A model generated the notes under the pieces. It made no database searches and had not been told where the DNA came from. It saw nothing but the letters and a program-made list of their open reading frames with translations. A stretch of 64,000 nucleotides of DNA from contig JAJDVM010000217.1 of NCBI GenBank assembly GCA_022826125.1, forward strand, positions 1-64,000, read 5' to 3'. The DNA is from Defluviicoccus sp. (lineage in GTDB: Bacteria; Pseudomonadota; Alphaproteobacteria; MPNO01). The position numbers were made by a program, and so were the translations under genes. This document shows, piece after piece, positions 52,764 through 61,427 of this stretch; the first letter of the stretch is position 1, and every line of letters begins with the position of its first letter.

Positions 52764-54016
52764 CCGTCCGTTCGACGCGGCTTCCGAGCGGGCTCCGGGT
52801 TGTCACCCACCGTATGGCGACGGTGGAGACGGTTTCGCTCGGCGCGTGGATCGATGTCGGCACCCGGCACGAGCGCGCCGAGGTCAACGGAATCGCCCAT
52901 CTGGTCGAGCACATGGCCTTCAAGGGCACCCGCCGGCGCTCGGCCCGGGCGATCGCGGAGGAGATCGAGTCGGTCGGCGGGCACCTGAACGCCTACACCT
53001 CGCGCGAGTTCACCGCCTTCCATGCCACCGTCCTCGCCGGCGACGAGGGGCTCGGCCTCGACATCGTCGCCGACATCCTGCAGCACGCCGTGCTCGACGC
53101 CGAAGAGCTCGAACGCGAGCGGGCGGTCATCCTGCGCGAGATCGGCCAGAGCAACGACACGCCGGAAGACGTCGTGTTCGACCGCTATCAGGAGACCGCG
53201 TTCCCCGACCAGCCCGTCGGCCGGCCGACGCTCGGCACGCCGCAACTGGTCGGCGCGATCGAGCGCGGAGACATGGTCGATTACATCGCCCGCCACTACA
53301 CGGCCGACCGGATCGTCGTCGCGGCGGCGGGAAAGGTCGACCATGACGATTTCGTCCGCCGCGCCGGCGATGCCTTCGGCTCGACGGAGGGCGCGGCGGG
53401 CTTCGCGCCCGAGCCGGCCGTCTACGCGGGCGGGGACAGCCGGGAGGTCCGGACGCAGGAACAGTTGCATCTGCTCGTGGGCCTCGAAGGCATCCCCCAC
53501 GCCGATCCCGACTATTACGCGCTGGCGGTGTTTTCGGCGGCGCTCGGCGGCGGCCTGTCGTCGCGCCTGTTCCAGGACATCCGCGAGGAGCGGGGGCTGG
53601 TCTATTCGATCTACAGCTTCAATTCGAGCTACGCCGACAGCGGTCTGTTCGGCGTCTACGCGGGCACCGGAGCGGAAAGCGCCTCCGAAGTGGTCGAGCG
53701 CGTCTGCGCCAATCTGACGACGCTGGCCGACGACATCTCGGAGGCCGAGTTGCAGCGCGCGAAGGCCCAGCTCAAGGCGGGGATCCTGATGTCGCTCGAA
53801 AGCACCGCGGCGCGGGCGGAGCAGATCGCGCGCCACACGCTGATCTTCGGCCGGGTGCTGCCGACCGAGGAGGTCGCCGAAGCGGTGGACGCGGTCGGCC
53901 GGGAGTCGGTCCTGCGCATTTCGGGGCGCCTGCGGGCCGGCCGGCCGACGGTCGCGATCCTCGGGCCTGAGGCAGCGATTCCTGCTTACGAAGAGATCGC
54001 CGCGGCGCTCAACTGA
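52760..54016 (+). CDS. M16-family zinc peptidase
   Basis: Inverted zinc motif HLVEHMAFKGT; ATGA overlap with thrC. Confidence 0.95.
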   Translation: MTVRSTRLPSGLRVVTHRMATVETVSLGAWIDVGTRHERAEVNGIAHLVEHMAFKGTRRRSARAIAEEIESVGGHLNAYTSREFTAFHATVLAGDEGLGLDIVADILQHAVLDAEELERERAVILREIGQSNDTPEDVVFDRYQETAFPDQPVGRPTLGTPQLVGAIERGDMVDYIARHYTADRIVVAAAGKVDHDDFVRRAGDAFGSTEGAAGFAPEPAVYAGGDSREVRTQEQLHLLVGLEGIPHADPDYYALAVFSAALGGGLSSRLFQDIREERGLVYSIYSFNSSYADSGLFGVYAGTGAESASEVVERVCANLTTLADDISEAELQRAKAQLKAGILMSLESTAARAEQIARHTLIFGRVLPTEEVAEAVDAVGRESVLRISGRLRAGRPTVAILGPEAAIPAYEEIAAALN

Positions 54017-54048
54017 CGCGGCAACGGGGGCACGTCCCGCGCCCCGTT

Positions 54049-54074
54049 GTCACCCGGAACAAGTCCGGGGTGAC
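54049..54074. repeat. Imperfect palindrome GTCACCCGGA-ACAAG-TCCGGGGTGAC (REP-like or terminator)
   Basis: Core TCCGGGGTGACA recurs at 54327-54338 and 57326-57337. Confidence 0.6.
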
Positions 54075-54094
54075 AGCCTTGGGGTGGGGTCCAA

Positions 54095-54110
54095 TGTTTC
54101 ACGTGAAACA
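54095..54110. promoter_or_regulatory. parS: parS (ParB-binding) site
   Basis: TGTTTCACGTGAAACA, exact 16-bp perfect palindrome identical to the parS consensus. Confidence 0.88.
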
Positions 54111-54410
54111 AAGGTCAACAATGCTGACGTATCCGTGACGTGAAGAACTTGCCCTAAGCCGTTAATGCGGTCCCGCGTGGCCCGGACGGGCGGGGGAAGA
54201 GCGGCGGCAGTCCGGCCCGCCGCGTCCCCGGGGGACGCGAATCGCCCGAAACGCCCCGCCGGCGGGGGCATCGCCCGCCAATATTCGCTACCCATCGGTA
54301 GTGAATTACGCCCCCGACGGAACGAGTCCGGGGTGACAGTCTCGGGGTCGGCAACGGCGCGGGCTTTCCGCCGGCTGTCGGTGGGAAATGCGGGTTAGAG
54401 CCTCGCCGGC

Positions 54411-54986
54411 TCAGGCGCGGCCGGCGGCGCCGGACAGCATGCCGGCGTCGATGCCGAGCTTGGCGATGGCGCGCTCCCAGCGGTCGTCGAGCCCCTCGCC
54501 GAAGATGAGGCCGTCGTCCGCCGGGACCGACAGCCACCCGTTGCGCTGGAGCTCGTCGTCGAGCTGGCCCGGCCCCCAGCCGGCATAGCCGAGCGCGAGC
54601 AGGCTGAATTTCGGGCCCTTGCCGGTGGCGATCGCCTTCAGGATGTCGATCGTGGCGGTCAGCGCCACGGTGTCGTCGATCACCAGCGTCGCGTCCTGAA
54701 CGTAGTCGGCGGAGTGCAGTACGAAGCCCCGCCCGGTTTCCACCGGGCCGCCGAAATGGACGTTGACGCCGTCCGGCGCCTCGGCTCCCGCGAGGTTCAG
54801 CTGGTCCAGCAGGTCGGGGAAGCTGATATTGTCCATCAGCTTGTTTATCACCAGCCCCATCGCGCCCTCGGCGGTATGGGCGCACATGTAGATGACCGAC
54901 CTGACGAAGCGCGAATCCTCCATCTGGGGCATCGCCACCAGAAGCTGACCCGTCAGATAGCCTTCGCTGTCGTCCCCGGCACTCAT
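54411..54986 (-). CDS. YqgE/AlgH-family protein
   Basis: [40 protein letters not shown]. Confidence 0.95.
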
Positions 54987-61169: not shown

Positions 61170-61237
61170 CGCGGATATACCGGCCCATTAGATAAGACCT
61201 GTCCGGCCCCGGGCCGGACGCTGCGCTACACAGACGA

Positions 61238-61427
61238 CGCCTGCGGGAGAGTCCGGTTCATCACCGGCGCCGAAGGAGCAAGGGCCCCGGAAACTCTCAG
61301 GCAAACGGACCGCAGGTCGATGTGTCTCTGGAAAGCGGGCCGCTTCGCGGATAGGGGAGCGGCTCCACCGAAGGGGTAAGCGGAACCGCCAGGTTTCGTG
61401 AATCTCTCAGGTCCACGGACAGAGGGG
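61238..61427 (+). ncRNA. Tandem glycine riboswitch (two aptamers)
   Basis: Aptamer 1 GGGAGAGTCC..GCGCCGAAGGAGCAAGG..AAACTCTCAGGCAAACGGACC; aptamer 2 TCTCTGGAAAG..CACCGAAGGGGTAAGC..AATCTCTCAGGTCCACGGACAGAGGG; directly upstream of gcvT. Confidence 0.93.

Follow-up and report, generated by a model that had tools for sequence, protein, structure and literature searches.

The exact parS site in the stretch of Defluviicoccus DNA analysed here (64,000 nucleotides, in the following called the window) is probably the parS module of a small intergenic element, which is dispersed and multiplies parS across the chromosomes of the genus. The original prediction had recognised a consensus parS and had explained it by proximity to the replication origin or as a satellite parS. 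The site itself is very probably bound by ParB, since a canonical parB gene is found in the genome of the window beside parA, mnmG and additional parS sites, and since parS is nearly invariant between species while its surroundings have diverged. The explanation probably does not hold in either form: the site is part of a multi-copy element and the window copy is a young insertion.

parS in the window, the genome and the genus

The site at positions 54095–54110 (no strand assigned) matches exactly the 16-bp palindrome TGTTTCACGTGAAACA and is, as predicted, perfect; in a motif scan it remained the sole parS match of the window even with up to three mismatches allowed (0.01 expected from dinucleotide shuffles). 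It is located between the reading frame of an M16 peptidase, the stop codon of which lies at 54014–54016, and the convergent yqgE (54411–54986, minus strand), the 3′ end of which borders the insertion. Both neighbours had been named correctly, as had the lack of parB: a search of the window contig (C196) resulted in no ParB-family match. The genome to which this contig belongs (G000) is a 5.87-Mb assembly of 377 contigs with an estimated completeness of 100% and a contamination of 8.22%. A scan of this whole genome, which had been proposed along with the prediction, identified 35 exact parS sites and only three additional ones at one to two mismatches, and the reversed control pattern gave 0 matches.

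Four congeners contain 35, 23, 52 and 23 exact copies. For a member of the same family but of another genus 2 copies were counted, for the rest of the order 0–4 and for 56 other sampled members of the class 0–9. Contamination can be rejected as the cause of the high count, because the four other genomes of the genus are equally rich in parS and share positions with the window’s genome. The same composite is also found in public genomes titled Defluviicoccus sp. Moreover, two contigs labelled as Vicinamibacteria bacterium (L066 and L130, JAJEEA01) contain parS doublets that are typical of Defluviicoccus and include the spacer described below; they are probably mis-binned in this record.

Anatomy and constraint of the composite element

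Most parS copies reside in an intergenic composite, in which parS is followed by a 21-bp palindromic spacer (SP) of the form GGWCAR-N5-YTGWCC, then by either a second parS or a tail and finally by a 13-bp palindrome, GTCCCCSGGGGAC. The element has a size of about 130–400 bp and is present in all five genus members examined; a few parS sites of the window’s genome stand alone, having neither SP nor the 13-mer. Ten parS pairs in this genome have a start-to-start distance of exactly 37 bp (doublets, class D), and ten single sites including the window copy (class S) have the same spacer followed by TATCC...GAAGAA replacing the second parS. In the window, the SP palindrome AGGTCAACAATGCTGACGTA (54112–54131, plus strand, GGWCAR-N5-YTGWCN type) adjoins parS, the class-S tail TCCGTGACGTGAAGAA (54132–54147, plus strand) stands in the place, 37 bp on from the first parS, at which class-D elements have their second parS, and the 13-bp palindrome GTCCCCGGGGGAC (54224–54236, no strand assigned) lies 113 bp past the end of parS.

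The arrangement is regular. Within the spacers 12–16 of 21 positions are self-complementary, compared to 0–10 in other flanks, and the distance from the last parS to the 13-mer is 24–28 bp for doublets and mostly 101 or 113 bp for singles; these spacings and the 37-bp parS pairs repeat across the four species examined. Both additional palindromes go along with parS: the SP pattern has 18 matches in the 5.87-Mb genome, every one of them next to parS, and the 13-mer occurs 19 times, never more than 130 bp away from parS. Likewise, for 19 of 21 copies in the congener G001 and 7 of 9 in G002 the distance to an exact parS is no more than 130 bp. Among the outgroups, six genomes of the order or class contain 0 copies and G005 contains 1.

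A general 37-bp rule for parS is not claimed here, since the search itself was set to 37 bp and the spacers elsewhere are unrelated, pairs of this distance occurring in many bacteria. As an example, six consecutive parS sites with an exact 37-bp period and an unrelated spacer were observed in another alphaproteobacterial family (L154, G256:C5:85888-86088). Noc-binding sites (TATTTCCCGGGAAATA) are palindromes of a ParB-family paralog and are dispersed on chromosomes. The 13-mer differs from these by its odd centre and its sequence, and no Noc assignment could be made for it. In a contig labelled Bacilli bacterium (L132, JAFWJA01, about 2023–2953) a parS array with a 37-bp period is accompanied by TATTTCCCGGGAAATA (Noc-type) sites, which places predicted ParB and Noc sites adjacent to each other within one locus. 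Neither SP nor the 13-mer could be linked to a protein.

Two other readings of the element can be dismissed: a known structured RNA, as Rfam returned no family match at the element, and a promoter within the spacer, as its TTGAC-like ends are not accompanied by a −10 sequence at proper spacing. Elsewhere in the window, tandem glycine riboswitch aptamers (RF00504) were identified at 61234–61322 and 61326–61424 (74 and 47 bits, respectively). Outside of the window, contig C97 encodes a 6S RNA (RF00013, L026:13630-13787) at a distance of about 2.9 kb from its parS element.

The comparison between species indicates that the parS sequence is kept by selection. When orthologous elements were aligned in 20 pairs, the divergence was 0.6% for parS, a value that is biased downwards because the loci were gathered via exact parS, 1.7% for the 13-mer, 9.6% for SP, 14.5% for the remaining element and 20.3% outside of the element. 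The divergence of the 13-mer and the second parS of the doublets are free of this selection bias. These substitution levels indicate that parS and the 13-mer are under strong constraint. Furthermore, comparison of the flanks revealed that many elements are located at a gene junction shared by at least two species. The S113 type, to which the copies in the window and on C53, C97 and C159 belong, has no positional counterpart in other species.

Insertion of the window copy and its neighbouring genes

The junction between the M16 peptidase and yqgE is only 3 bp long in G002 and 5 bp long in G004, compared to about 395 bp in the window, where the additional segment (54012–54405, plus strand) is without counterpart in these two congeners. 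In G001 the junction consists of 127 bp of unrelated sequence, and in G003 the two orthologs are located on separate contigs. Moreover, a unit of 392 bp (54040–54431, plus strand) recurs at 95% identity on contig C159 (L028). As this repeat takes in the last approximately 20 bp of yqgE, the copy on C159 probably derived from a locus like that of the window. Because the junction is empty of the element in congeners and a near-identical copy exists elsewhere, the window copy is a recent, lineage-specific insertion. The parS core is flanked by two copies of a 34-nt direct repeat (54055–54088 and 54318–54351, both plus strand, 88% identical), and neither clear terminal inverted repeats nor a target-site duplication were found at the window copy.

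The element is multi-copy and was inserted in the window in a lineage-specific manner at an otherwise empty site, as is typical of MITE/REP-type repeats, and like REP/BIME and MITE repeats it is short, intergenic and rich in palindromes. The element could be selfish, its palindromes including parS being kept for its own copying and not for segregation. This is an unlikely explanation, to which the dispersed repeat families with homology extending past the motifs, the recent duplication with flanking direct repeats and the insertion at gene ends would fit; at 16 of the 188 element ends checked in G000–G003 the adjacent reading frame terminates at a TAA or TGA codon in contact with parS, so that the element seems to provide the stop. 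However, most copies other than those of the S113 type are found at positions shared between species with parS and 13-mer unmutated, unlike dead selfish copies, and a search for a cognate transposase, which was not systematic, identified none. In contrast to REP/BIME and MITE repeats, the element of the genus contains an exact centromere site together with the strictly conserved 13-mer, its motifs are strongly constrained, and neither terminal repeats nor, in the same non-systematic search, a transposase were found for it.

A second group of observations concerns toxin-antitoxin (TA) genes. An operator-like palindrome, TTCGCTACCCATCGGTAGTGAA (54284–54305, no strand assigned), lies in the window copy; in its sister copies on C53 and C97 it is located immediately 5′ of the start of a DUF433-type gene. 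The relatives of the window copy on C53 and C97 and that in G003 extend into such a reading frame; Pfam assigned DUF433 to the frame of G003 and to another, related frame of C53, but not to the shorter frame of C97. The window copy kept the palindrome and is without the gene. Downstream of several elements, genes of unrelated TA families are encoded (dnstrm_HI1420 antidote, MazE-like, RHH, PIN, Fic/DUF4172, DUF433), which applies to a minority of the copies, and the link of the elements to TA genes is a lead only.

The elements might accordingly be promoter or operator regions of TA genes, with parS, SP and 13-mer having a regulatory role, e.g., by ParB silencing, and being dispersed together with TA cassettes; the window copy would then have shed its TA genes. 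The similar distance at which antitoxins and toxins of differing families follow the elements, the operator-like palindromes ending class-S copies at constant spacing and the DUF433-type frames adjoining the relatives of the window copy are in line with this idea. It is nevertheless improbable, as most elements including that of the window precede or face ordinary genes, and as the spacing and constraint of parS are the same with or without TA genes.

Distance from the origin, the host partition system and implications

The distances from the origin were derived by synteny with G011, a genome assembled as a single contig that belongs to another family of the order and for which 1.6 Mb around parB were compared; they stem from the gene order of another family and not from the genus, and are only estimates because gene order differs between families. 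G011 contains two parS sites, both less than 5 kb from parB, and the cumulative GC skew has its minimum at parB (1.6 Mb examined). The G011 orthologs of genes on element contigs are located 1–8 kb (C86), 16–24 kb (C63) and 16–33 kb (C336) from parB, and for further element contigs at 120–240 kb (C253), 541–548 kb (C97), about 695 kb (C257), 738 kb (C43) and 874 kb (C311). For the window, a protein search placed the ispH ortholog 1.14 Mb from parB, the maximum possible distance being 2.07 Mb. This position in G011, which is complete, makes it unlikely that the window lies near the origin. That the parS copies are ordinary centromere sites accumulated near ori, the window included, is therefore a very remote explanation: it would be compatible with C86, C63 and C336 being within about 33 kb of parB and with the elements often being paired at distances of 1.3–6.7 kb, but the other element contigs at 120–874 kb, the position of ispH and the lack of the window copy at this gene junction in three congeners speak against it.

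The closest PDB relative of the ParB encoded in the window’s genome is C. crescentus ParB (6t1f). At its locus, one parS is located at mnmG-rsmG, and three more with SP spacers between them form a triple site immediately 5′ of mnmG; a gene for a PIN-domain (VapC-like) protein (L025:11603-12154, minus strand) ends about 11 bp from this triple parS. About a dozen additional ParB-domain matches were observed in G000, including C190:22229, C159:11455, C348:28454, C119:13969 and C166:8782. Among 386 genomes of the class, parS together with SP was found outside the window’s genome in only two genomes of one other family, and this second alphaproteobacterial family has a parS-SP-parS doublet at the apparent mnmG-rsmG junction. 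This fits an ancestral parS-SP-parS arrangement of the partition locus, from which copies would later have spread in the genus, the direction being inferred.

For a parS module of a dispersed element, the following course can be proposed. The element would spread as repeat-flanked segments are copied, with an ancestral parS pair at mnmG-rsmG as the probable starting point. The host ParB would load at each element parS, creating many ParB loading sites in the genus, some far from the origin, and hence many SMC loading sites. SP and 13-mer may be sites for one or more putative dimeric DNA-binding partners acting with ParB, and ParB sliding from parS may affect the TA promoters downstream of several copies. 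The best supported part is that each element would carry a working ParB-loading site. A further-reaching possibility, put forward tentatively, is a polycentric chromosome with a self-dispersing composite centromere, at which ParB and two putative partners at SP and 13-mer would form tens of segregation or SMC-loading sites.

The chromosomal ParABS systems of Bacillus, Caulobacter and Streptomyces share with the genus the 16-bp consensus and the mnmG-rsmG-parA-parB locus with parS. In contrast, the genus has 23–52 exact copies, these are part of a repeated element with two more palindromes, and the distance between parB and the orthologs of element-contig genes ranges from 1 kb to over 1 Mb. 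High parS counts covered by a review are 20–23, near the origin (PMC7333895). The mobile element SGI1, a large integrative mobilizable element, is reported to hijack a plasmid ParABS that is not its own, i.e., that of the IncC plasmid (PMC10954446). In comparison to SGI1 as described there, the units of the genus are short, non-coding and chromosomal, and both would represent mobile DNA exploiting a partition system that it does not encode. In the literature searched, no precedent was found for parS in dispersed repeats or for parS of Defluviicoccus.

Caulobacter tolerates additional parS clusters up to about 500 kb from ori, and those placed mid-arm are disfavoured (PMC5815017). A genus with 23–52 perfect parS sites on a dispersed element, copies of which are probably far from the origin, represents a natural test of this rule; tolerance in the genus would need explaining, perhaps via the partners of SP and 13-mer, and the two conserved palindromes point to candidate ParB partners. 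The expansion of bacterial centromere regions and its driver were named as an interesting question (PMC5815017), and the element offers a concrete route to studying how bacterial centromeres may multiply.
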